From Candidatus Uhrbacteria bacterium (GTDB lineage: Bacteria; Patescibacteriota; Patescibacteriia; 2-12-FULL-60-25): a stretch of DNA of 64,000 nt. The stretch is taken from the NCBI GenBank assembly GCA_020850575.1, contig JADZEJ010000006.1, positions 1-64,000 on the forward strand, given 5' to 3'. How positions within the stretch are numbered: the stretch's first letter is position 1; each line of letters starts with the position of its first letter. Positions 2,011 through 16,848 of this stretch are shown piece after piece. The notes below the pieces were generated by a model. The model saw only the letters and a list, made by a program, of their open reading frames with translations. It was not told where the DNA came from and did no database searches. The position numbers and the translations under genes are program-made.

Positions 2011-3711
2011 ATGACAGACAATAATTTACAAAAGAAAGTAGCAGAGCTAGAAGCTCAAGTAAGGAAACTCAAGAAAAGCAATCTTGGGCTGGTTTTTGAG
2101 GACAAAACGGAAGATGTCGTAGAGCAATCAAAAACCAAAGTTCCTGTTCTGAAAGAAGTCGTCAAAAACCGCCTCGATTTGAGCGCAGAATATCCGAATA
2201 ATCTGATGATTGAGGGCGATAATTATCTCGCACTTTCGGTTCTTAATTATACTCATAAAAAGAACATTGACCTCATCTACATTGATCCGCCGTATAACAC
2301 CGGCGCGAAAAATTGGAAATACAACAATGATTATGTAGATAAAGACGACGAGTACCGACACAGTAAGTGGCTCTCGTTTATGCGCCACCGCCTCAATCTT
2401 GCTAAAAACTTACTGAAAGATGATGGTGTGTTAATTTGTGCGATTGACGATAACGAACAGGCACACTTGGGCGTTTTGATTGAGCAACTATTCCCCGCAC
2501 ACGAACAACATGCAATCACTATCATTCATAACCCCAAAGGCGTTCAAGGCACAAACTTTTCTTACACTCACGAATACGCGATTTTCGTCGTTCCAAAAAA
2601 TCAAAAAGCAATCGGAGATCGCTCACTTTCTGAAGACGAGATTTATGTTTCAAACTTGCGAAACTGGGGCAATGAGTCCGAGCGAACAGACGCAAAAAAT
2701 TGTTTCTATCCAATTATCATAAAAGATAAAAAGATTGTTGGTTTTGGCGATGTCGCGCCGGACAAAGTTCATCCAAAATCGGCAAACGAAAAACAGAAAG
2801 ACGGAAGTATTTATGTTTGGCCGATTGATGAAAAAGGCGTTGAACGAAAATGGCGATATGCTCGCCAAAGCGTAGAAGAAATAAAAGATATTCTGCAAAT
2901 AAAAGAATCGAGAGGTGGTGTCATTCAAATAATGATCGCCAAGGATTACGGAACATACAAAACCGTTTGGATTGATAAAAAGTATGACGCGAGCGAATAT
3001 GGCACAAAACTGTTGCGCGAAATACTACCAAAATGTGATTTTGATTTTCCAAAATCTCTCCATACAGTTTATGACTGTCTCTTTGCCGTCGTAGGCTCGC
3101 GTCCACACGCAAATATTTTGGACTTTTTCGCTGGTTCGGGAACAACCGGACACGCCGTTTTAGAGATGAATAAAATTGATGGTGGCAATCGCAAGTTTAT
3201 CCTTTGCACCAACAACGAAAACAATAATGGTGGAAACGGCGGAATTGCCGAGTCGGTTTGTTACCCGCGTATCAAAGCAGTTATCAACGGCTACAAGAAC
3301 AAGAAAAGCGAAAAAGTTGCAGGATTGCCTAGCAATCTTTTCTACTACCAAACTGATCTTGTAGACATCGAGCAAATACATAAAGTGCCTGATGACGCGA
3401 AAATCCGCATTACTTACGAAGCGGGAGAAATGATTGCGGTGCGGGAAGATACGCTCGATGAAGTGGAGAAAAACGAATGGTGGCAGATTTTCGAGAGCAA
3501 AGGCAAGTTGACCGCGATTTACTTCAAGGAAGATAAGGCGAAATTGGCAGAACTGATTGCTAAACTTGAAAAGAAAAATCTGCCAACAGCTTTGTATATT
3601 TTCAGTTGGGGCAAAAACGAATACAAGGGCGAGTATTCAACGGCAAATATCAGGGTCGAGGATATTCCAGAGCCGATTATCGAAGTTTATAAAGAGCTTA
3701 ACCGGATATAA
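2011..3711 (+). CDS. mod: Type III DNA methyltransferase (adenine-specific, Mod)
   Basis: Transfers a methyl group from SAM to adenine in a short asymmetric recognition site, protecting host DNA and giving the Res subunit its specificity. 566 residues: N-terminal coiled coil, catalytic DPPYNTG at 92-98, a central variable part that should hold the target-recognition domain, then the SAM-binding FFAGSGTTG near residue 370. The catalytic motif precedes the SAM motif, as in beta-class N6-adenine enzymes of type III systems. It starts 2 bp after the HTH gene and ends 2 bp before res, so translation is probably coupled. Recognition sequence cannot be read from sequence alone. Confidence 0.95.
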   Translation: MTDNNLQKKVAELEAQVRKLKKSNLGLVFEDKTEDVVEQSKTKVPVLKEVVKNRLDLSAEYPNNLMIEGDNYLALSVLNYTHKKNIDLIYIDPPYNTGAKNWKYNNDYVDKDDEYRHSKWLSFMRHRLNLAKNLLKDDGVLICAIDDNEQAHLGVLIEQLFPAHEQHAITIIHNPKGVQGTNFSYTHEYAIFVVPKNQKAIGDRSLSEDEIYVSNLRNWGNESERTDAKNCFYPIIIKDKKIVGFGDVAPDKVHPKSANEKQKDGSIYVWPIDEKGVERKWRYARQSVEEIKDILQIKESRGGVIQIMIAKDYGTYKTVWIDKKYDASEYGTKLLREILPKCDFDFPKSLHTVYDCLFAVVGSRPHANILDFFAGSGTTGHAVLEMNKIDGGNRKFILCTNNENNNGGNGGIAESVCYPRIKAVINGYKNKKSEKVAGLPSNLFYYQTDLVDIEQIHKVPDDAKIRITYEAGEMIAVREDTLDEVEKNEWWQIFESKGKLTAIYFKEDKAKLAELIAKLEKKNLPTALYIFSWGKNEYKGEYSTANIRVEDIPEPIIEVYKELNRI

Positions 3712-3713
3712 CT

Positions 3714-6002
3714 ATGTTTGCGCTAAAACCATTTCAAGAAACGGCAATATCCGAACTCAAAGATCAGTTTTTGAGCTTGTGGAAATTGCCTAATCAAAAT
3801 ATCCCGCTTGTTTTGAAGTCGCCGACTGGAAGCGGAAAAACAATAATGCTGGCGCAATTTTTGCGCGATATCATGAGCGATCCGCGCTTTGCGGGCAACG
3901 ATGTTGCCTTTGTGTGGTTCTCTTTTAGCGAGGATTCATACGAGCAGAGCAAGAAAAAACTTTTTGATTACTATGGCGGCGCAAGCGAGCTGGATTTGAT
4001 TGATCTCAATGACCTTTCGCGTGAGAAACTTCACCAGAACGATGTCTTTTTCATAAACTGGCAGAAAATAAAAGGTAAAAGCAAGGACAGCCGAAAATTG
4101 CGCCGCGAAAACGAACAGGGTTTGACTTTTGATAATTTCATCAACGAAACGCACGAGGCGGGACGCAAAATTGTCGTAATTATTGACGAGGAACACATCG
4201 GAAGCGACACCGACCTTGCGCTAGAAGTAGTGGACGGACTTATCAAACCGAAAATCACAATTCGCGTATCGGCTACTCCGAAATATATCCCTACTCGCGC
4301 AGAAACTGCCGGATATATTGAGGTAAAGCGAAGCGATGTTGTCGAGGCTGGGTTAATTAAAGAAAAAATCGTTTTCCAAACGGAAGAAGACTTGAAACAA
4401 AAATCCGTCAAAAAACTCGACCAAGACGAAATGCTTTTGGAATTGGCGTATGCCAAACGGCAAGAATTGATTGATTTGTACAAAAAGCTCGGTGTTGAAA
4501 TAAATCCACTTGTTCTGATTCAGCTTCCAAACGACGATCAAGCAAGCAAAGAAACAAGCGACACGACCAAGCAAACGATTGTATTGGAATACTTAAAGCG
4601 TAAGGGCATAAAGAGCGACGAAATCGCCGTTTGGCTTTCTAAAGAGAAAGAAAACTTGGAAGACTTGGAAAAACACAACTCGCCAGTGTCATTTCTCTTG
4701 TTCAAGCAAGCCGCCGCTACCGGCTGGGATTGTCCGCGCGCGAGCGTCTTGGTTATGTTCCGCGAAATAAAGAATCCTACCTTTGCGATACAAACTGTCG
4801 GGCGTATTTTGCGTATGCCGTTTGGCACGCATTTTGCCAATCCCGAACTTAATCTTGGCTATCTCTATACTAATTACAAACGCAACGAGGTTTTGGCTGA
4901 ATACGCAAAATCCAAAACTGAAAATCGTCCGGCAATCAATGGTAGTTATCGCAAGAAAAATGTTGAGCCGATCAAATTGGAATCCGTCTTTATGACGCGC
5001 GCGGACTATAACGACTTGGGCGATACATTCCAAAATACTTTCAAGCAAGTGGCGAACAAAAAACTGGATACCAAAAAGCTCAATCTGAAACCGAAAGTTA
5101 CGAACGGCTTAATTGTAGGTGTAGAAATTGATGACTACGACAACTTTACAAAAGAGCTTTTTGAGGAGGGTGGAAGTTATGACGAGGAAATGTCTCGCCA
5201 CGACCTTGAGCGGTTGTATAACTTGCTTTGCTTCAAAATCGTTGCCAAACAAACTGACGAAAACCGAAAATTCGCACCGGAGCGTTCTTGGGGAAAACTA
5301 AAGACCGCGCTCAACATTTATCTGATGGAGAAGCTAAAACTATCTCGCGCGGATGTTTACAAAGTTATCGTAAACGATCTGGTGAGCGAAGCGGGCGCAC
5401 TTGCACCAATTATCGGCGACGCGCTTTTGGCATACCGTCCTATCCGCGAGCAAGAAGTAAACAAAAAGGCGGCACGCGCGAAGCGCGTGGAGCATGTTGA
5501 AATACCACGCGAAGCGTTGTTCTTTACCGATCAATACGAAGAATTGAAGGTCAAGAAATCCGCAATGGAGCCGTTTTGGTTTGAGAAAACTCAAGCAGGA
5601 TTGTTTGGAGGTATAAATAATGAGAGAAAATTTATTGATTTTCTTGAATCGCCCAAAAACAAGAGCGTCGTGTGGTGGCATAAAAACGGCGACACTGGAA
5701 GCGAGCATTTTTCAATTTCCTACTACAATCCCGACGAGAACAAAGAAAAATTATTTTATCCTGATTGGATTATCAAGACCAAGAGCGGCGTTTTGATTGT
5801 TGATACAAAAGCCGGAATTACCGCCGAAAGTAAGGACACAAAATACAAAGCAGAAGCTCTGCAAGCGTGGCTGAAAGGCAGAAAGGGCTTTGATGGCGGT
5901 ATCGTCGTTCAAGACGGACCAAACGGCTGGAAAATCAATCGCAACGCCAAATATTCTTTCGATTCGTCGCTCAAGGGCTGGGATGTTCTAGATTTAACTT
6001 AA
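3714..6002 (+). CDS. res: Type III restriction enzyme, Res subunit
   Basis: ATP-dependent SF2 helicase-like translocase plus nuclease that acts with Mod on unmodified sites. 762 residues: Walker A SPTGSGKT at 36-43, DEEH box at about 158, VSATPKY (motif III) and QTVGRILRMP (motif VI). The C-terminal PD-(D/E)xK nuclease is visible as FYPDWI (Asp near 684) and DTK (697-699). All catalytic motifs appear intact and there is no frameshift, so the enzyme is probably active. A perfect 7-bp palindrome with a GAA loop lies in the coding sequence at 5473-5489 (KAARAKRVE region). It is 2 bp after mod and 4 bp before the ATPase gene. Confidence 0.95.
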   Translation: MFALKPFQETAISELKDQFLSLWKLPNQNIPLVLKSPTGSGKTIMLAQFLRDIMSDPRFAGNDVAFVWFSFSEDSYEQSKKKLFDYYGGASELDLIDLNDLSREKLHQNDVFFINWQKIKGKSKDSRKLRRENEQGLTFDNFINETHEAGRKIVVIIDEEHIGSDTDLALEVVDGLIKPKITIRVSATPKYIPTRAETAGYIEVKRSDVVEAGLIKEKIVFQTEEDLKQKSVKKLDQDEMLLELAYAKRQELIDLYKKLGVEINPLVLIQLPNDDQASKETSDTTKQTIVLEYLKRKGIKSDEIAVWLSKEKENLEDLEKHNSPVSFLLFKQAAATGWDCPRASVLVMFREIKNPTFAIQTVGRILRMPFGTHFANPELNLGYLYTNYKRNEVLAEYAKSKTENRPAINGSYRKKNVEPIKLESVFMTRADYNDLGDTFQNTFKQVANKKLDTKKLNLKPKVTNGLIVGVEIDDYDNFTKELFEEGGSYDEEMSRHDLERLYNLLCFKIVAKQTDENRKFAPERSWGKLKTALNIYLMEKLKLSRADVYKVIVNDLVSEAGALAPIIGDALLAYRPIREQEVNKKAARAKRVEHVEIPREALFFTDQYEELKVKKSAMEPFWFEKTQAGLFGGINNERKFIDFLESPKNKSVVWWHKNGDTGSEHFSISYYNPDENKEKLFYPDWIIKTKSGVLIVDTKAGITAESKDTKYKAEALQAWLKGRKGFDGGIVVQDGPNGWKINRNAKYSFDSSLKGWDVLDLT

Positions 6003-6006
6003 AAAT

Positions 6007-7407
6007 ATGTTTATTCAGAAAATCGCAATCAAAAATTTCCGACTCTTTCCTTCAGATTGCGATTTTGTGATTGATAATATCAATACACCTGACGGCACAA
6101 ATGAGGGTTCGGGGTTGAATGTGTTTGTTGGTGAAAATGGAAGCGGGAAAACCGCACTTCTCGATTCATTTGCGCTTCCGATCTTGGAATATAAGACGGA
6201 AAATTTTGGGATAAATAATTTTAATGATACAGGCAAAAAGATTGAGATAAGCGTTTATTCTAAGGACGAGTTTGAAGTTGATGGAACAATGCCAAAAGGT
6301 TCGTTCAAAGCGAAAGGATTTTCTTTTGAGGCCGGTGTTCGTTCAAGAGGAACGAAAACATACCTTTCTTCAATCGTTGTAAACGATCAAAAATTTATAA
6401 AGGTTGATCCGTCAAAACCAGCAGACAACAGTCCCGATTTGAGGGTTAATGTAAATAATCCATTCAAAGGTAAGCGATTTAGCGAAAATGATGTGCTTTT
6501 TTTGGACAAAAACAGATTATTTCAAACTCGTTCGGGCAATTTCAACACGACACGCTTTGATCGGTTGATGGAAGATTTTAGTTACCAATATCTAAATAAA
6601 AGCTCAACTGCGGGTATTGTGAACCTAAACGAGGACTTAGACGAAAAAATCAAAAAGGATAAAGTTGAAAATAATTTTCTTGGCGAGGCAGTAAAAAAGT
6701 TTGAGGAAATAAGCGGCTCACAAATCAGATTAGATTTTTTGGATAATTATGAGCCATTCAAAGGAGCTTTCTTCGCCACAAAGAAAGACAATCATCAGCA
6801 AATTGCTTTGAGCAATTTAGGTTCGGGATATGAAATGATTTTTGCGCTTTTATATTCTTTCTACCTTGCCCGACAGAGTGGGAAGCAGTTGATTGTCCTA
6901 ATAGACGAGCCGGAGCTACATTTACATCCAAGATTGCAAGAAAAGTTTGTCAGTTTTTTGCTGGAGTTTTCAAAAAGCGCACAAATTTTGCTCGCTTCCC
7001 ACTCTCCGCTTTTGGTAAAACAGCTTTCAGAAAACGATAAAGTTAAGGTAAGGGTTTTAGAAAACAGTGGACAGGAAGTATCAGAAATAGAAAAGCGAGT
7101 TTTGCCTTATATATCCGCGAATGAAACGAATTTTTTGGCCTTCAATCTCGCGACAGAGGAATATCACAATGAGCTTTATGAGGAGTTAAAATCTATCAAT
7201 GGTGCTAGTAAAGATTACAAACCATTTGATAATGATTTTTTCGTTACTGCCAAAGGAGAGCCAAAAAATTCGCCTTGGAAAGGCACACAAAATGAAGTCA
7301 GTATTCATACATTCATTAGAAACCAAATTCATCACCAAAAAGATAATGGTAAAACGGAGTATAGCGTTTTGAAGTCGTCCATCGAGAAGATGCGAGGCTT
7401 CTTTTGA
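6007..7407 (+). CDS. AAA/SMC-like ATPase linked to the type III R-M operon
   Basis: 466 residues of the AAA_21/AAA_15 (ABC-type head) class. Seen: N-terminal IKNFRLF, Walker A GENGSGKT at 42-49, signature SNLGSGYE at 269-276, Walker B LIVLIDEPE at 295-303 and SHSP H-loop at 331. The C-terminus carries IRNQIHH at 437-443, which fits the R-x4-H pattern of HEPN RNases, and ends in a short helix with SIEKMR. Such ATPases accompany restriction or other defence systems; here it is the fourth gene of the operon (4-bp gap), so it is likely an accessory or independent effector. Whether the HEPN-like motif is catalytic is inference. Confidence 0.85.
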   Translation: MFIQKIAIKNFRLFPSDCDFVIDNINTPDGTNEGSGLNVFVGENGSGKTALLDSFALPILEYKTENFGINNFNDTGKKIEISVYSKDEFEVDGTMPKGSFKAKGFSFEAGVRSRGTKTYLSSIVVNDQKFIKVDPSKPADNSPDLRVNVNNPFKGKRFSENDVLFLDKNRLFQTRSGNFNTTRFDRLMEDFSYQYLNKSSTAGIVNLNEDLDEKIKKDKVENNFLGEAVKKFEEISGSQIRLDFLDNYEPFKGAFFATKKDNHQQIALSNLGSGYEMIFALLYSFYLARQSGKQLIVLIDEPELHLHPRLQEKFVSFLLEFSKSAQILLASHSPLLVKQLSENDKVKVRVLENSGQEVSEIEKRVLPYISANETNFLAFNLATEEYHNELYEELKSINGASKDYKPFDNDFFVTAKGEPKNSPWKGTQNEVSIHTFIRNQIHHQKDNGKTEYSVLKSSIEKMRGFF

Positions 7408-8223: not shown

Positions 8224-8682
8224 TTATTTCTCTAAATCGGCAATTATAATTTTCTTCATTTGATACATTGCTCGCATAGCATAGTCTCTTTTTTCCTTAT
8301 CTCCACTCGTCGAAAGCTCACGTAATTTTTTTGGTTCAATTTGCCAGGAAAGCCCGTATTTATCTTTACACCAACCACAGACACTTTCAGACCCACCATT
8401 TGTAGTAAGAACATTCCAATAATAATCTGTCTCTTCTTGATCATCTGTACTTATTGTGAGAGATATTGCTTCTGTGAATTTAAATAGAGGTCCAGCGGCA
8501 AGCATGTCATAATTTTTACCAAATATCTCTACGGTCGCAAACTGATATTCTCCACCCGGACCATTTTCCAGATCGCCTAAATAGATAACTTTGATATTAT
8601 CTTTAAAAATACTTTTGTAATACTCAATGACATTTGGTAGATCTTTTTCGTACCATAGACATGCATTTATTTTGTTTTGCAT
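8224..8682 (-). CDS. VOC-superfamily protein, PhnB/glyoxalase-like (copy 2)
   Basis: 152 residues of the vicinal-oxygen-chelate fold, close to the PhnB / 3-demethylubiquinone methyltransferase-like group. The family start MQNKINACLWYEK gives the chosen start at 8682; longer starts (8700, 8721) would overlap the upstream gene. YYKSIFKD, DKYGLSWQI and WCKDKYG are typical family positions. The substrate is unknown: members include metal-dependent lyases, dioxygenases and resistance proteins. It lies 4 bp after a second VOC gene, and the two form a pair likely expressed together. They may have arisen by duplication. Confidence 0.8.
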   Translation of the reverse strand: MQNKINACLWYEKDLPNVIEYYKSIFKDNIKVIYLGDLENGPGGEYQFATVEIFGKNYDMLAAGPLFKFTEAISLTISTDDQEETDYYWNVLTTNGGSESVCGWCKDKYGLSWQIEPKKLRELSTSGDKEKRDYAMRAMYQMKKIIIADLEK

Positions 8683-8686
8683 AAAA

Positions 8687-9127
8687 TTATTTCTGTCCAT
8701 GATATTTCTCATCAAAATCAATCATCCATTCAATGCCATATTTATCACGAAGCAAACCAAAGTATGAACCCCAAGGACTCTCTCCAATCGGCATTTCTGG
8801 AATCACTCCAACTGAAAGCGCATTAAATAAAGTATCTGCTTCTTCTTTGCTTTCTGCACTTATTGCAATCTTGCTTCTGTTTTCATTGAGATTATGCGTA
8901 CCCATAGACGACGGAGTGTCGCTTCCCATTAGAATGCTAGATTTTCCGATAGAGAGAGCTATATACATTATCTTTTCTGCTTCTGCTTGTGCATTAGGAT
9001 TACTTGGATTTGGAATATCTTTAAAGCGATATATTGCCATAATTTCTCCACCGAAGATTGATTTATAAAAAGTGAACGCTTCTTCACAATTTCCATTAAA
9101 ATGTATGAAAGGATTAATTGATGCCAT
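8687..9127 (-). CDS. VOC-superfamily protein, PhnB/glyoxalase-like (copy 1)
   Basis: 146 residues with the PhnB-like pattern: INPFIHFNGNCEEAFTFYKS at the start, KIMYIALSIG in the middle and WGSYFGLLRDKYGIEW near the end. It is a single-repeat VOC domain, so a dimer is expected. No substrate can be assigned. Transcription probably starts from the AT-rich palindrome just upstream, which also faces the VIT transporter gene on the other strand. Confidence 0.85.
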   Translation of the reverse strand: MASINPFIHFNGNCEEAFTFYKSIFGGEIMAIYRFKDIPNPSNPNAQAEAEKIMYIALSIGKSSILMGSDTPSSMGTHNLNENRSKIAISAESKEEADTLFNALSVGVIPEMPIGESPWGSYFGLLRDKYGIEWMIDFDEKYHGQK

Positions 9128-9154
9128 AATAATTTATTAATTGTCTTTTTAATG

Positions 9155-9216
9155 ATTCAACTATTATATATATCATTTTTAAACATAAAAACATATCATA
9201 TATATAATAGTTGAAT
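9155..9216. promoter_or_regulatory. 19-bp inverted repeat with mirrored -10 boxes
   Basis: ATTCAACTATTATATATAT at 9155-9173 and its exact reverse complement at 9198-9216, 24-nt centre. Each arm carries TATAAT pointing outwards (9203-9208 on plus, 9163-9168 on minus) between divergent genes. It is a candidate symmetric divergent promoter or operator; -35 boxes are weak. Confidence 0.6.
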
Positions 9217-9260
9217 AAATAGCATGATATTTCAATAAAAAAAGGTATGATAAAGTATAT

Positions 9261-9761
9261 TTGCTAAGAAATCTTATTAGAGATAAAGAATACGTACGAA
9301 GCATCTTGTTTGGTATTGAAGACAGTCTCATCTCAACCACGGGGCTCATAGCTGGAATCAGTATTGGCTCAAACAATAAAAAGTTCATCCTCATGGCTGC
9401 GGTTGTTTCTGTCATCATTGAGGCGGTATCCATGGGTGTAGGAGAATATTTAAGCGATGAAGCTATTCAGGAGATTGATAAGGTAAAACGCCACAGAGAA
9501 AAACCATTCATCAGTGGAGGGCTTTTAACGATGTCATACCTCATAGCTGGTATGGTGCCAATTATTCCTGTTGTCCTTTTTGACTTTCCACTATCTCTTC
9601 TCGTGAGCGTATTTTTTGCCTTCATCTCTCTTTTTCTTATCGGATATATACAAGGCAAGATAATATATACCAAACCATACAGAAGTGGTTTCAAGATATT
9701 GCTTGTTGAAGGAATAGCAACCCTACTTGGTTTATTCGTAGGAATATTTTTTAAGATATGA
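9261..9761 (+). CDS. VIT1/CCC1-family iron/manganese transporter
   Basis: 166-residue membrane protein of the VIT/CCC1 family, which moves Fe2+ or Mn2+ out of the cytoplasm. The family start region FGIEDSLISTTGLIAGIS and the MGVGEYLS segment are clear. About four to five membrane helices can be seen; the short linker between the helix pairs (IDKVKRHREKPFIS) suggests the small form without a large metal-binding domain. The start is TTG at 9261, since no ATG lies upstream in frame before the conserved region and the next ATG would remove the first helix. Confidence 0.8.
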   Translation: MLRNLIRDKEYVRSILFGIEDSLISTTGLIAGISIGSNNKKFILMAAVVSVIIEAVSMGVGEYLSDEAIQEIDKVKRHREKPFISGGLLTMSYLIAGMVPIIPVVLFDFPLSLLVSVFFAFISLFLIGYIQGKIIYTKPYRSGFKILLVEGIATLLGLFVGIFFKI

Positions 9762-9800
9762 AGATATAAATAGTATTTCTGTAAATTGAACTTTGATTAC

Positions 9801-9809
9801 TGGTATACT
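9801..9809 (+). promoter_or_regulatory. Extended -10 promoter before MliC-META gene
   Basis: TGGTATACT is an extended -10 element (TGnTATACT) 8 bp before the ATG at 9818. No good -35 is seen at the usual distance. The transcript would be leaderless or nearly so. Confidence 0.5.
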
Positions 9810-9817
9810 ATTGGTCT

Positions 9818-10528
9818 ATGAATAAAAATATACTTGTAGTAGTTATTATTTTAATAATAACTATTGGTTTTTCCGTTTTCTATAAAGGCAAGAATAAAGA
9901 GCAGGTGGTATCTCCTGCTCCAAGTACTGCCATCACATTTACTAGTCCGGCTTCATCTGAAAAAGTTTCAGTGGTGTTTAATGAAGAGAAATCAACAGCT
10001 ACTCTCACAGGCTTTGGATACACAAACTTGGTATTAACTTCTGAAGTATCTGCTTCTGGAGCTCGATATGTAAACAAATCAGAAAATCTTGAATTATGGA
10101 ATCGTGGCGAAAGCGTAACCCTTTCAAAAGATGGTAAGCAAATATTTTCTGGAAACATTGGTGGACAGAATGACGCCGAAAAAATGACTTCAGCTAAATG
10201 GACATGGCAAGCGACGAGTGAAGATGGAAAAGTAGTTGAGCCAAAAGATAAGATTGCATTTACTATTGCTTTTAATACGGGAGATAAGATGGTAAACGCT
10301 ACCACAGACTGTAACACCATATTTGGTCCGTACACTGTTGATTCAGATAACAAACTCACTTTTGGATCTCTTGGTATGACACGAAAGTATTGTGAAGGAT
10401 CTCAAGAAACAGAATTCGCAAGTGGATTATCAAAAATAAAGAAATTCTACTTTAATGAATCTGGGGCACTTGTGCTGGAGTTCTCATCACCTGATAACTA
10501 TATGTTATTTGAAAAAGAAATGAAGTAA
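9818..10528 (+). CDS. Membrane-anchored MliC-like + META domain protein
   Basis: 236 residues. A single hydrophobic segment (about 4-22) anchors the protein with the rest outside. Residues about 45-110 match the MliC fold (lysozyme inhibitor): VSVVFNEEKSTATLTG, then NLELWNRGESVTLSKDGK. Residues about 125-235 look like a META/HslJ domain (KWTWQATSEDGK, then ATTDCNTIFGPYTV, with a second Cys in KYCEGS). The Cys pair could form a disulfide. The likely role is protection of the cell wall from host lysozyme and stress tolerance, but both domains are assigned by pattern only. It starts a short same-strand run with two enzymes. Confidence 0.75.
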   Translation: MNKNILVVVIILIITIGFSVFYKGKNKEQVVSPAPSTAITFTSPASSEKVSVVFNEEKSTATLTGFGYTNLVLTSEVSASGARYVNKSENLELWNRGESVTLSKDGKQIFSGNIGGQNDAEKMTSAKWTWQATSEDGKVVEPKDKIAFTIAFNTGDKMVNATTDCNTIFGPYTVDSDNKLTFGSLGMTRKYCEGSQETEFASGLSKIKKFYFNESGALVLEFSSPDNYMLFEKEMK

Positions 10529-10545
10529 TAATATACAATACGTTT

Positions 10546-11151
10546 ATGCGAAAAATCCGTGTTATCGATTTTATAACCCTTGATGGTGTCATGCAGGCAC
10601 CGGGCGAATCCAAAGAAGATACAGACGAGGGTTTTACATACGGCGGATGGATGGTGCCTTATTTTGACGATTTTTCTGGCAAAGTTATGAAAAAGCAGAT
10701 GTCGCTAGAACGATGCGAATTGCTTTTTGGTAGAAAAACGTACGAAATCTTTGCGAGATACTGGCCGCACCACGCAGATAACTGGCCAGGCATCAACGAA
10801 GTTAAAAAATATGTTGCGTCCCATGATTCAACGTTCAAGCTCGATTGGAAGCATTCCGTGCTTCTTTCAGGTAACGTTGTCGAAGAAATAAAGAAACTTA
10901 AAAGTGAGGATGGCCCTGATTTACATGTTTGGGGTAGCGGCAACTTGGTTCAGACACTGCTAAAGCACAATATTGTTGATGAATTATGGCTCAAAATTTT
11001 TCCGATAACGCTCGGTACAGGCAAACGTCTGTTTGCCGAAGGCACAACTCCAGCAGCGTTTAAACTAACGGATAGCGAGGTTTCGCCAAGTGGAATTATC
11101 TTTGCTAATTATGAACGTGTAGGAGATGTAAAGATTGGCTCATTTGATTAA
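10546..11151 (+). CDS. Dihydrofolate-reductase-like (RibD C-terminal) protein
   Basis: 201 residues of the RibD-C / DHFR-like reductase family, which binds NADPH. Seen: DFITLDGVMQAPG at the start, LLFGRKTYEIFARYWP, DLHVWGSGNLVQTLL and DELWLKIFPITLGTGKRLF. These match single-domain 'dihydrofolate reductase family' proteins found widely in bacteria; true folate activity is not implied. A TACAAT -10-like box ends 6 bp before the ATG, so this gene may have its own leaderless transcript. Confidence 0.85.
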   Translation: MRKIRVIDFITLDGVMQAPGESKEDTDEGFTYGGWMVPYFDDFSGKVMKKQMSLERCELLFGRKTYEIFARYWPHHADNWPGINEVKKYVASHDSTFKLDWKHSVLLSGNVVEEIKKLKSEDGPDLHVWGSGNLVQTLLKHNIVDELWLKIFPITLGTGKRLFAEGTTPAAFKLTDSEVSPSGIIFANYERVGDVKIGSFD

Positions 11152-11227
11152 AGAATGTGCCCAAAAAACAATAAAAATACAAATAAGATTCAATATTTTG
11201 GAATAGAAATTTCTGCAAAGTACACTT

Positions 11228-11659
11228 ATGAGAAATAAAGCCTTAGCCAAACTAGAGCCACTTCTTGGTGAATGGGAATACACAATGTACAACAGTTGGT
11301 TTTTAGAAAGTATGGAAACGAAAATCAAAGGCTCCACCGTGATTGAGCGGCTACATGATTCTTTCGTCGTAATTCGCAATACCAGTGCCGATAAAAAGCC
11401 AGAAGACATTTGGGTTATCGGCTACAGCGATCCACAGGATAAATATCAGATGTTTTATCATGATCAGCGCGGTGTGGCACGTATTTTCAATATGACATTC
11501 AATGGCAAAAGACTGTTATTCTGGAGAGAGGATAAGGACTTTTACCAACGCATAACCATCGACATTACAGTGGATGGTCTACACTCAGTCGCTGAAGCAT
11601 CTGAAGATAAAGGCAAAACGTGGAGAAAAGATTTAGAAATGGCACACAAAAAAATTTAA
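11228..11659 (+). CDS. Small beta-barrel-like protein of unknown function
   Basis: 143 residues, no signal peptide or membrane segment. The opening ALAKLEPLLGEWEY and later WVIGYSDPQDKYQMFYHDQR resemble DUF1579/lipocalin-like proteins that bind small ligands. The end (EDKGKTWRKDLEMAHKK) is also typical of that group. No catalytic residue can be named. Codon use is AT-rich as in its neighbours. Confidence 0.6.
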   Translation: MRNKALAKLEPLLGEWEYTMYNSWFLESMETKIKGSTVIERLHDSFVVIRNTSADKKPEDIWVIGYSDPQDKYQMFYHDQRGVARIFNMTFNGKRLLFWREDKDFYQRITIDITVDGLHSVAEASEDKGKTWRKDLEMAHKKI

Positions 11660-12427: not shown

Positions 12428-12448
12428 CCGCTAAACAGGCGGTTTTTT
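12428..12448 (+). terminator. Weak terminator-like hairpin
   Basis: CCGC at 12428-12431 pairs with GCGG at 12439-12442, followed by six T. The stem is only 4 bp. Confidence 0.4.
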
Positions 12449-12629: not shown

Positions 12630-14093
12630 ATGGAAGATTTTCCAATTTGGCTCCGTGCAAACCACTGGATAAATGCCGTCCTCATGATTTTCATCATCCG
12701 TTCAGGAATACAAATTTTATTCGATCATCCCAAACTCTATTGGAATGACGATTCAACTCCCGGTACTGAATGGTTAAAATTCGGAAAAAAAATAATGCCA
12801 AAAAATAAAATATGGACATCTCACGATGAAGAAGAAGATATAAATTCAATAGTTGCACTCCCTGGAAAAAAAGGAAATCTCGGATCAGGTCGACGGTGGC
12901 ACTTTTTAACGGCATCAATCTGGCTCATAAATGGCATGGTTTATATTGTCTTATTATTTGCAACAGGAATATGGAAACACATTGTACCGACATCTTGGAG
13001 CATAATCCCCGCTTCATTCCAAACATTATATTCGTACGTAACATTTCATCTACCTCCACCAGAAACCTTTACTCCTTTTGATCCGCTCCAACAGCTGACA
13101 TACTTTGCCGTCATTTTTATCTTTGCTCCGCTAATGATCTTAACGGGAATGGCAATGTCCCCTGCTATTGCTGGTAGATTTCCATGGTATACAAAGATTT
13201 TTGGCGGTAGACAGGGCGCCCGTAGTATTCATTTTATTGTAATGATTCTACTCGTATCTTTTATTCCAATCCATATTATTTTAGTACTACTGGCTGGTTT
13301 TCCAAGCAATATTGGAGCAATGACGATCGGACATGATATTTCAGTAAAAACCGGTTTAGTATTGTATACGGGTATTATTGGCGGACTTATCGTATTAAAT
13401 GTATGGGCAACTTGGTATACCTTAAAAGATCAACGCAGATTGCAACTGGCATTTGATACCTATCTCGAACCACTCATACGCAAAGTCTTTGGTCCTCTTA
13501 AATCAAAACAATTTTACAGCAAAAAAGACATTTCTCAATTTTTCAGAATCAATGGATATCCTCCAAAAGATACTGAATGGATAAAAGCGAGTAAAAACAA
13601 TTTTAAAAATTGGAAATTAAAGGTAAGCGGACTTATTGACGGAGACAAGTATTTCTCGTTATCCGACTTAAAAAAATTTCCAAAACAAGAGCAAATTACA
13701 AAACACAATTGTATTCAAGGTTGGTCGGCGATTGCTGAGTGGGGTGGTGTAGAAATTTCAGAATTCATAAAAAATCTACCGATTGATCCAAAAAAAAAGT
13801 TCATTGTTTTTTATGCCTACGACAAAGATGAAAACGGAAAAGAATACTATGGCTCCTTAAGTATAAAGGAAGCGCAATACCCACAATCGTTGCTTGCATA
13901 TGAAATGAATTGGAATACATTACCACTTGAACACGGAGCTCCACTTCGTCTTCGTATGGAATCAAAATTGGGGTTCAAAATGGTGAAATACATTAAAGAA
14001 ATATCATTCGTGGAACAGTTAAAAAACATACATGGCGGTCGTGGCGGATACAAAGAAGATGTCGAACATTACAGCACCGAAGCGTCAATATAA
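12630..14093 (+). CDS. Cytochrome b561-like / sulfite oxidase Moco fusion
   Basis: 487-residue fusion. Residues 1-265 form about five membrane helices of a di-haem cytochrome b561/thiosulfate-reductase type protein, with His in LRANHW, RRWHF, ARSIHF and PIHI as candidate haem ligands. Residues about 300-470 match the molybdopterin-binding domain of sulfite oxidases: ITKHNCIQGWSAIAEWGGV, where Cys361 would bind Mo, and AYEMNW...LEHGAPLRL. It should oxidise or reduce a small oxo-compound and pass electrons to or from the membrane. It leads an operon-like run with DUF488 and a P-type ATPase. No molybdopterin synthesis genes lie in the window. Confidence 0.85.
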   Translation: MEDFPIWLRANHWINAVLMIFIIRSGIQILFDHPKLYWNDDSTPGTEWLKFGKKIMPKNKIWTSHDEEEDINSIVALPGKKGNLGSGRRWHFLTASIWLINGMVYIVLLFATGIWKHIVPTSWSIIPASFQTLYSYVTFHLPPPETFTPFDPLQQLTYFAVIFIFAPLMILTGMAMSPAIAGRFPWYTKIFGGRQGARSIHFIVMILLVSFIPIHIILVLLAGFPSNIGAMTIGHDISVKTGLVLYTGIIGGLIVLNVWATWYTLKDQRRLQLAFDTYLEPLIRKVFGPLKSKQFYSKKDISQFFRINGYPPKDTEWIKASKNNFKNWKLKVSGLIDGDKYFSLSDLKKFPKQEQITKHNCIQGWSAIAEWGGVEISEFIKNLPIDPKKKFIVFYAYDKDENGKEYYGSLSIKEAQYPQSLLAYEMNWNTLPLEHGAPLRLRMESKLGFKMVKYIKEISFVEQLKNIHGGRGGYKEDVEHYSTEASI

Positions 14094-14126
14094 TTTGAAA
14101 TATCAATGTAAAAAAACGTAATACAT

Positions 14127-14477
14127 ATGATAAAACTGAAACGAATATACGAAAAACCAGATAAAAATGATGGATATCGTATTTTAGTTGATAGATTGTG
14201 GCCACGTGGAGTTTCAAAAGAAAGGGCATCACTCGATGAATGGCTTAAAGATATCGCGCCAACCACAGAACTCAGAAAATGGTTTGGACATGATCCAAAA
14301 AGATGGAGTATTTTCCAAAAAAAATACAAAAAAGAATTATTATTACATAAAAACACACTCCAAGATATTAAAAAATTAAGTAAAAAAAACAACACGGTAA
14401 CGCTGGTATACGCAGCAAAAGATGAAGACCACAATGAAGCGATCGTACTAAAAAGTATGTTGGAAGATGCCAAATAA
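14127..14477 (+). CDS. DUF488 family protein (YeaO-like)
   Basis: 116 residues of DUF488. The family hallmarks DGYRILVDRLWPRGVSKE, LDEWLKDIAPTTELRKWFGH and TLVYAAKDEDHNEA are clear. Function is unknown across the family; the conserved WPRG region is thought to be functional. It begins 33 bp after the fusion gene and its stop is 1 bp before the ATPase ATG, which supports co-transcription. Confidence 0.85.
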   Translation: MIKLKRIYEKPDKNDGYRILVDRLWPRGVSKERASLDEWLKDIAPTTELRKWFGHDPKRWSIFQKKYKKELLLHKNTLQDIKKLSKKNNTVTLVYAAKDEDHNEAIVLKSMLEDAK

Positions 14478-14478
14478 T

Positions 14479-16848
14479 ATGTCAAAAACACTTGGACTGA
14501 CAACTGTTGAAGCAGAAGCCTTACTCAAAAAATTTGGTTTAAATGATGTTGAGGAGAAGAAAAATGACATTGTAAAAAAATTTTTTTTACCCCTCATTTC
14601 CCCTATCTCCCTGATGCTTATAACAGCAGCTATTTTATCATATATTAATGGCAAAATTTTTGATTGTTGGTTTATTATCATCTTATTCTTTTTAAATTTT
14701 GTAGTTCAAAAATGGCAAGAATTTAAAGCCAATAAAGCAATTGCTGAATTACGGGAAAAATTAGCGTTTGATGTCTCTGTTTTGCGAGATGGAAAATGGA
14801 TTTCCCTGAATGCGAAATTCCTCGTACCGGGTGACCTTATACGATTGGGTCTTGGTGGAATAATCCCAGCCGATGGAGTTGTAACAAATTCACAAAATCT
14901 TTCCATAAATGAAGCTGTTCTTACAGGTGAATCAATGTTAAAAGACAAAAAAACTGGCGACAAGATCTTCTCCGGTTCATTTATTGCAACTGGTAATCTA
15001 GAAGCGGAGATTACCTCTACTGGAAAAAATACAAACTTCGGAAAAACGATTTTTTCCATCGAAGCACCTGCAGAAAAAAGTATTTTAGAAAAAGATATCA
15101 TTCACATATCTAAATTTTTAACGAAAATCAGCATTGCAGCCGTTGTAATACTAACCATTTCTCTAACCTACAAAGGATTTGATTTGAAAGAATTAATGAC
15201 ACTTGATTTAAGTCTTATCATTGCCGGAATACCAATCGCTTTACCGACAGTGATGACAATAATCTTAAGCATAGGTGCGGCGAAATTAGCGAAACAATCG
15301 GTCATCATTCGTCGATTATCCGCTCTTCAAGACTTAGCGAATGTTAACTTACTGCTAACTGATAAAACAGGCACAATCACAAAAAATGAAATTACCATTA
15401 CACATGTTATTTCATATGATTCAAATTTTAATTCAAACGACATTATTGAATTGGCATATTATGCGACTTCACATGCTACACCAAATGCCATTGATCTTGC
15501 GGTTGTAAAAAAATTTGAACAAACTGGCCGTAAATCAAATGCAATAATTCTTAATCTTATTCCTTATGATTCTGAGAGAAAAAGAACAACTGCATACATT
15601 CAAAAAGAACAAGAAAAAATGGTAATTTCATTAGGAGCTCCACAAATCATTCAACAATTTGATACGAATTCACCACCGGAACAAAAATCTAAATTTGAAC
15701 AAGATGTTCAAGATGCGGCAGCTGATGGCTTCAGAACCTTAGCTATTGCAATAACAAATAAAGGGGAAACGGAAGAACGCATGACTATTGTTGGAATGCT
15801 TTTCTTGACCGATCCGCTTGATGAGGGTGCAAAGGAAACAATTCATTTCATGCAACAAAATGGAATAGAGGTAAAAATCGTAACAGGAGATAACAAGCTA
15901 ATCACAGAAAGAATTACACGTGAATTAGAATTATCAGGAAGTGTATTTTCTCCGAAAGATACCAGATTGTTTTATCAACAGTACAATAAAACGAATAATG
16001 ACAAATTATATTCAGTTGCTGCTTTTTCAGAAATATTACCAAGAGATAAATTTGAACTTGTCTCAAAGCTCAAATCTACACACATTGTCGCTGCTACAGG
16101 CGATGGAATAAACGATATACAAGCATTAAAAGCTGCAAATGTAGGTATTGCTGTTTCAAATGCCGTCAGCGCGCTAAAAAGCTTAGCAGACATCGTATTG
16201 GTAGGTCGAGGAATATCCGTAATTCGTAATGCAATCATAGAATCACGCAAAATATTTATTCGAGTCTATAATTATTCAGTGTATCGAATTTCAGAAAGTT
16301 TTCGTTTGATAATCACTATATTTATTCTCGGATTACTATACGGTTTTTATCCATTAAATCCGTTACAACTTATATTATTGGCGTTCTTAAATGATATTCC
16401 GATCATTTGTCTGGCTGTAGATCGTGTAAAAATAACAACAAAACCATCGAAAATAAATGTAAAAGAAAGATTTAATCTAAGTCTATTATTTGGAACGATA
16501 GGAGTAATAAGCAGCATTACATTGTTTGTACTTATGAAAAATGTTTGGCAATTTTCATTACCGAATATTCAAACGATCTTTTTCTTAAAACTGACGATTT
16601 CTGGTCATATGTTGATTTTTGTCGCCCACACAAAAGAACGGTGGTATACATTTCTTCCAAGCAAAGAAGTGATTATTGCGACAGTAACCACACAAATAGT
16701 AGCAACTACTTTAGCCGTTTCCGGCTTTCTAATGCCGTCTAAAATTTCTTTTTCTTTAGCGGCTCTAGTTTGGGTTTGGGCATTTATATGGATGCAATTA
16801 AGTGATTTTGTAAAAGTTATTCACCGTTCAATGATTCGAAGAAACTAA
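14479..16848 (+). CDS. P-type ATPase, plasma-membrane H+-ATPase type (P3A)
   Basis: 789 residues. It pumps a cation, most likely H+, out of the cell using a phospho-Asp intermediate. Seen: TGES of the actuator domain (149-152), phosphorylation motif DKTGTIT (from 295), GDGIND (from 541) and the membrane motif AGIPIALPTVMTI typical of type III proton pumps. It lacks N-terminal heavy-metal-binding domains. The start at ATG 14479 is preferred to 14467, which would overlap DUF488; spacing to that stop is 1 bp. Ion specificity is inferred from family resemblance. The gene is AT-rich like its neighbours. Confidence 0.88.
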   Translation: MSKTLGLTTVEAEALLKKFGLNDVEEKKNDIVKKFFLPLISPISLMLITAAILSYINGKIFDCWFIIILFFLNFVVQKWQEFKANKAIAELREKLAFDVSVLRDGKWISLNAKFLVPGDLIRLGLGGIIPADGVVTNSQNLSINEAVLTGESMLKDKKTGDKIFSGSFIATGNLEAEITSTGKNTNFGKTIFSIEAPAEKSILEKDIIHISKFLTKISIAAVVILTISLTYKGFDLKELMTLDLSLIIAGIPIALPTVMTIILSIGAAKLAKQSVIIRRLSALQDLANVNLLLTDKTGTITKNEITITHVISYDSNFNSNDIIELAYYATSHATPNAIDLAVVKKFEQTGRKSNAIILNLIPYDSERKRTTAYIQKEQEKMVISLGAPQIIQQFDTNSPPEQKSKFEQDVQDAAADGFRTLAIAITNKGETEERMTIVGMLFLTDPLDEGAKETIHFMQQNGIEVKIVTGDNKLITERITRELELSGSVFSPKDTRLFYQQYNKTNNDKLYSVAAFSEILPRDKFELVSKLKSTHIVAATGDGINDIQALKAANVGIAVSNAVSALKSLADIVLVGRGISVIRNAIIESRKIFIRVYNYSVYRISESFRLIITIFILGLLYGFYPLNPLQLILLAFLNDIPIICLAVDRVKITTKPSKINVKERFNLSLLFGTIGVISSITLFVLMKNVWQFSLPNIQTIFFLKLTISGHMLIFVAHTKERWYTFLPSKEVIIATVTTQIVATTLAVSGFLMPSKISFSLAALVWVWAFIWMQLSDFVKVIHRSMIRRN

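Follow-up and report, generated by a model that had tools for sequence, protein, structure and literature searches.

How a bacterium with a reduced genome comes to carry a membrane haem protein fused to a molybdopterin domain, and whether such a protein could work there, are the questions raised by a locus of a Candidatus Uhrbacteria bacterium. The stretch analyzed here (the window) comprises the initial 64 kb of contig 6 (JADZEJ010000006.1) of a 1.04-Mb genome that is assembled in 7 contigs and is 100% complete. A preliminary description of the window had placed a sulfite oxidase/cytochrome b fusion, a DUF488 gene, and a proton-pump-like ATPase at 12630-16848, and Pfam and TIGR01647 confirm these coordinates and this gene content. 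The fusion, here called CYTMO, is encoded by a single uninterrupted open reading frame (ORF), and its 487 amino acids carry Pfam matches to cytochrome b561 (PF01292, residues 4-231, E 1e-24) and Oxidored_molyb (PF00174, residues 324-463, E 7e-30) in one chain. On balance, we lean toward CYTMO being a working, laterally acquired, quinol-fed, and cytoplasm-facing molybdenum reductase that would use scavenged haem and molybdenum cofactor (Moco) and probably scavenged quinone. The gene and its two parts are the following.

12630-14093, plus strand: CYTMO, cytochrome b561 / molybdopterin-domain oxidoreductase, 487 amino acids (Pfam, full-length homologues, AlphaFold2 model).
12630-13490, plus strand: predicted five-helix diheme cytochrome b-type domain (conservation, hydropathy and charge pattern, Foldseek).
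13572-14093, plus strand: sulfite-oxidase-fold molybdopterin domain (PF00174; PDB relatives 1xdq and 2blf by sequence and fold).

Cys361 of CYTMO (codon 13710-13712) lies within a conserved HxCIQGW loop and aligns with the cysteine of MsrP, the molybdenum-ligating position; it is invariant in alignments A1 and A3 and conserved in at least 95% of 89 homologues. The predicted haem ligands His12, His91, His201, and His215 are invariant or nearly so in homologues, and all eight sequences of the first alignment carry them together with Cys361. The window protein retains 62 of the 63 columns that are at least 95% identical in the 89 homologues, which ranks it in the middle of 90 sequences. This retention, despite a long branch that exceeds those of most homologues, argues that CYTMO is under selection, functional, and still cofactor-binding. 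The same data bear on the alternative of a relic that is decaying or repurposed: in a genome unable to supply Moco or haem, CYTMO would still be made but would stay idle or free of cofactor. The long branch and the absence of the tested Moco and haem synthesis genes (see below) would fit such a relic, whereas the intact ORF and operon and the conserved columns, which include all the cofactor ligands, would not, and we consider this explanation quite improbable.

The AlphaFold2 model of CYTMO has a mean pLDDT of 88.7 and a pTM of 0.86. The best Foldseek match of its molybdopterin domain is SorA (2blf, E 2e-11), and MsrP, sulfite oxidases, and nitrate reductase are matched as well. The fold match to 2blf, PF00174, and the molybdenum-ligating cysteine place CYTMO in the SUOX-fold superfamily, and PF01292 with the four predicted haem-ligand histidines places it among the prokaryotic cytochrome b561 / Ni-hydrogenase cytochromes b. 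PruR structures were also among the fold-search matches, which would be in line with a domain that binds plain pterin and senses redox with no molybdenum, a solution that removes the need for Moco. PruR has a tryptophan in place of the molybdenum-ligating cysteine (PMC13259868), whereas the cysteine is present in CYTMO, setting it apart from PruR, is invariant in its alignments, and is retained in those stand-alone Patescibacteria molybdopterin domains that can be aligned through this region; a pterin sensor is the most improbable of the readings considered here. The membrane helices matched FdnI (1kqf_C, E 0.12, probability 0.99) and HyaC (6g94_A, E 0.18, probability 0.97), and a sequence profile of the membrane half gave no match in the PDB. 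These diheme cytochromes b have in common with CYTMO the b561-family helices and four histidines, of which two lie in a single helix at a distance of 14 residues (for FdnI we presume these positions and used them as a lead only). Unlike CYTMO, they are separate subunits of formate dehydrogenase or hydrogenase with no SUOX-fold fusion. The chain has five hydropathy peaks and positive loops at 33-91, 179-202, and 262-320, and is predicted to have its N terminus outside and its molybdopterin domain inside. No twin-arginine (Tat) signal was found at the N terminus, which fits a cytoplasmic molybdopterin domain, and the chemistry of CYTMO is most likely cytoplasmic.

The sulfite oxidase function implied by the preliminary description is not supported, and the name applies to CYTMO only as that of its superfamily. 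The models of the sulfite enzymes SoxC, SorA, and SorT score 45, 43, and 35 bits against cut-offs of 420-600, and the catalytic loop is MsrP-like (CIQGWS compared with CVEAWS in MsrP), without the insertion that follows the cysteine in plant sulfite oxidase. CYTMO is not an MsrP proper either, as it scores 81.8 bits with NF003767 (cut-off 207), lacks the Tat signal, and has a b561 domain on the same chain; this comparison did not extend to a search for a separate MsrQ. MsrP (YedY, 1xdq) is the closest sequence relative among solved structures, and the two proteins have in common the type of Cys loop and, in concept, a membrane electron feed through haem b. In contrast to the Tat-exported, periplasmic MsrP with its separate MsrQ, CYTMO is one chain with a haem domain of another family and a predicted cytoplasmic site. 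The reaction could also run in the reverse direction, with a dehydrogenase (of sulfite, for example) feeding electrons through the haems into quinone. Sulfite dehydrogenases do belong to the superfamily, SorA is the best fold match, and cytochromes of the FdnI/HyaC type deliver electrons to quinone. However, the loop type, the low scores of the sulfite enzyme models, and a genome without the tested oxidase types to accept the electrons all point away from a dehydrogenase, which we regard as unlikely.

Each pathway of cofactor synthesis and respiration was searched with one or two marker families, namely the MoaA C-terminal domain (PF06463) and MoeA (PF03453) for Moco, ferrochelatase (PF00762) for haem, and COX1 (haem-copper) and bd oxidase. 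MoaA was found neither in the window genome nor in 76 other relatives, nor in any of the 12 Patescibacteria with a molybdopterin domain in the phylum sample, nor in seven genomes reached through their loci (six of the Saccharibacteria type and one of Chlamydiae). MoeA was absent from the window genome. Among Ktedonobacter controls, MoeA was present in both genomes checked and MoaA in the one tested. Ferrochelatase was missing from the window genome and from all eight Saccharibacteria-type genomes. Neither COX1 nor bd oxidase was found in the window genome, and each of the eight Saccharibacteria-type genomes with the gene has one or the other as a candidate quinol oxidase. For these markers, the lack of Moco synthesis, haem synthesis, and oxygen respiration that had been presumed from the lineage is borne out, and the full cofactor synthesis with a respiratory chain that would have spoken against the preliminary description did not appear. 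Synthesis by unrecognized enzymes, or by genes in an unassembled remainder, would leave the same picture, and the 7-contig assembly and the small number of families searched give this some room; the 100% completeness and the absence of MoaA from 77 of 77 genomes searched and from 12 of 12 Patescibacteria with molybdopterin domains make it very unlikely.

With a molybdoprotein and neither MoaA nor MoeA (other Moco steps were not searched), the window genome belongs with the organisms containing orphan molybdoproteins, a category already described (Peng et al. 2018, PMC6147048). The likeness is that a molybdoenzyme is encoded but a complete pathway to Moco is not. Most published cases belong to the DMSO-reductase or xanthine-oxidase family, and incomplete assemblies are a worry there, whereas the present one has a sulfite-oxidase fold, stands in a 100%-complete genome, and recurs within one phylum. 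Another orphan case is the Chlamydiae metagenome-assembled genome KR126_chlam_2, which has ferrochelatase and lacks MoaA and MoeA; its fused oxidoreductase (L021, 1158-2636) lies near lysine/diaminopimelate-pathway-like genes.

The preliminary description called the fusion unexpected in such a genome; the fusion is not unusual in itself, and the host proved to be the unusual part. By tblastn, 385 plasmid records match CYTMO (161 cover at least 80% of the query), and 577 scanned genome stretches encode relatives, the best 80 of which come from Nitrospira, Ktedonobacteria, Acidobacteriota, Planctomycetota, Bacteroidota, archaea, and others. Among the matches listed, the full-length ones are 36-50% identical. 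Full-length homologues are widespread among soil bacteria and archaea, and the fused family is known and apparently uncharacterized; no annotated function was found for single-chain homologues, and a literature search by domain names gave no match. The single-chain "molybdopterin-dependent oxidoreductases" of Rhodococcus, Mesorhizobium, Halobaculum, and others have the same full-length architecture (PF01292 and PF00174) with conserved cofactor ligands, and their hosts, unlike the window genome, come from large-genome groups.

The genome samples examined overlap and their counts are not additive. Among 381 genomes of the class, the full-length protein occurs only in the window genome, which agrees with the earlier statement that it is unexpected for this lineage, and the molybdopterin domain alone occurs in five others; the 380 genomes of the phylum sample include three with the full-length protein and nine with only the domain. 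Among the 144 nearest genomes, PF00174 was found in the window genome and in G034, where it sits at one end of a contig of 1,645 bp; the G034 match is the only one among the 143 relatives and likely a case of misbinning or contamination. The same explanation was ruled out for the window contig, since der, topA, secY, and a ribosomal protein cluster lie on the same 64 kb as CYTMO and since two genomes of the same phylum outside the class (G402 and G285) have close homologues inside the clade of named Saccharibacteria. In the tree, CYTMO falls in one group (support 100/98) with eight sequences of the Saccharibacteria type and two from Nitrospira. A single origin of all Patescibacteria copies appears in 10% of bootstrap trees and is not rejected (AU p 0.36). 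This grouping, combined with the fact that no other sampled genome of the class has the full-length protein, indicates that CYTMO was probably acquired laterally, as had been supposed, and the gene does not track the species tree. A viral-contig scan, which reaches close relatives only, found no relative.

Clues to the substrate come from relatives of the gene. In the Saccharibacteria loci L016, L020, L023, L043, L044, and L095/L135, the fused oxidoreductase forms a cassette with a NarK-type MFS transporter and a histidine phosphatase; in L134 the transporter lies at a distance and the phosphatase is missing, and a Crp-type regulator is nearby in L134 and L043. The MFS protein after or near the gene in most Saccharibacteria loci has the NarK nitrate/nitrite family as its best model, with scores of 189-211 bits that are under the cut-off of 311.7. 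A haloarchaeal plasmid homologue adjoins nirK, and the NarK-type and nirK neighbors hint at a nitrogen-oxide substrate. In a class relative (L144, G584), a 351-amino acid open frame combines an MsrB (SelR) domain, a transmembrane segment, and a molybdopterin domain, which suggests a role in methionine sulfoxide metabolism for stand-alone Patescibacteria proteins; with the MsrP-like Cys loop of CYTMO, it hints at methionine sulfoxide as substrate. In another genome (L138, 5844-7185, G435), the gene directly after a stand-alone molybdopterin-domain gene encodes an NAD-binding reductase domain. The NarK-type neighbor and the candidate quinol oxidase in all eight Saccharibacteria-type genomes are consistent with a quinol-linked role in oxyanion or nitrogen-oxide reduction. 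Scavenged haem and quinone have been proposed for Saccharibacteria (PMC6031116), and bo3 oxidases have been reported in otherwise anaerobic-looking soil Patescibacteria (PMC8407418).

Two further genes follow CYTMO, and a hairpin candidate precedes it.

14127-14477, plus strand: DUF488 protein of subclade N3i, 116 amino acids (Pfam PF22752, E 1e-40).
14467-16848, plus strand: P3A proton-efflux P-type ATPase, 793 amino acids (TIGR01647; alignment with Pma1 and AHA2).
12428-12442, plus strand: terminator-like hairpin upstream of the operon, weak and not above chance (hairpin scan).

The spacings of 33 bp between CYTMO and DUF488 and -11 bp (an overlap) between DUF488 and the ATPase suggest one operon; the promoter and terminator scan gave no excess over shuffled sequence. 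Subclade N3i is labeled inactive in Pfam, and for DUF488 function there was no structure match and no informative paper among the titles and abstracts returned. The ATPase is above the curated P3A cut-off (TIGR01647, 632.7 against 615.5 bits), and its closest solved relatives are the fungal and plant plasma-membrane H+-ATPases Pma1 and AHA2. It retains DKTGT and, aligned with AHA2, the Asp of M6 and the Arg of M5, the proton-acceptor pair of that enzyme, and it belongs to P3A. This Asp and partner Arg are common to Pma1, AHA2, and the window ATPase, which differs from them as a bacterial form of a sparse Patescibacteria lineage. Only 3 of 134 relatives exceed the TIGR01647 cut-off; the nearest relative of the window ATPase, in G084 (64% identical), belongs to the same class but to a different family, and the clade includes two further members of the class. 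In a class relative (L133, 5081-7471, G109), the P3A ATPase gene is broken by one in-frame TGA. A P3A gene adjoins the homologous gene in none of the 87 loci examined, and DUF488 is near it in 10 of them, compared with 0 of 14 control stretches (two Ktedonobacter genomes, a small control from one group). The preliminary description saw one foreign block marked by low GC. Import as one block was rejected, as the ATPase has its own sparse class lineage and the oxidoreductase groups with Saccharibacteria and Nitrospira; the two were probably joined after separate histories. The GC dip is real (0.33-0.36 compared with 0.403 for the whole window), but the third-position GC of CYTMO, DUF488, and the ATPase (0.32, 0.26, and 0.25) lies within the range of neighboring core genes (0.18-0.42), making GC poor evidence of foreign origin. 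Just upstream, at 2011-7407, a Type III restriction-modification-like pair (DNA methylase, ResIII) and an AAA ATPase are possibly a defense island, and 8224-11659 holds small accessory genes (two VOC-type, VIT1, META/MliC lipoprotein-like, RibD_C, and DUF1579-like).

In the mechanism we favor, quinol would be oxidized in the membrane, electrons would pass via two b haems to the cytoplasmic molybdenum center, and a small S-oxide, N-oxide, or oxyanion would be reduced in the cytoplasm; both the substrate and the direction are inferred. Because no MoaA, MoeA, ferrochelatase, COX1, or bd oxidase was found in the genome, haem, Moco, and probably quinone would be taken from other cells, and a host is the best inference for the source of cofactor. 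Moco does pass between organisms in the diet of C. elegans (PMC9793310). The genes for CYTMO, DUF488, and the P3A proton pump probably share one transcript, and from this operon the three may act together in balancing redox or acid stress where no tested terminal oxidase is present. Several points weigh against the scavenging reductase. Taken by itself, the membrane half gives weak Foldseek matches (E 0.12-0.18), and the search for cofactor synthesis covered just two markers for Moco and one for haem. NarK is not adjacent to the gene in the window genome, and no tested quinol oxidase is present there, which leaves a quinone pool hypothetical, with quinone synthesis and NADH dehydrogenases not searched. 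The substrate, electron donor, and activity of CYTMO are putative. Moco is unstable outside proteins, and we know of no bacterial system for its uptake.

Orphan molybdoproteins and the fused family were both known, and the window case is a clean, recurrent Patescibacteria instance of an orphan molybdoprotein. What makes it interesting is that it recurs across Patescibacteria and that Moco uptake is an idea open to testing; if CYTMO is active, a bacterium apparently unable to make Moco or haem must get both ready-made. We hold tentatively, as a possibility short of an even chance, that Patescibacteria have gained self-contained molybdenum enzymes time and again and supply them with finished Moco, and haem, from host cells, an interbacterial Moco piracy. 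The recurrence in Saccharibacteria with quinol oxidases and a NarK-type transporter is a testable entry point, as some members can be grown with hosts. The locus also points to an abundant, apparently uncharacterized family of membrane molybdoenzymes in soil microbes. An active CYTMO would also make Moco a good that bacteria share and would reveal one way in which Patescibacteria depend on their hosts.

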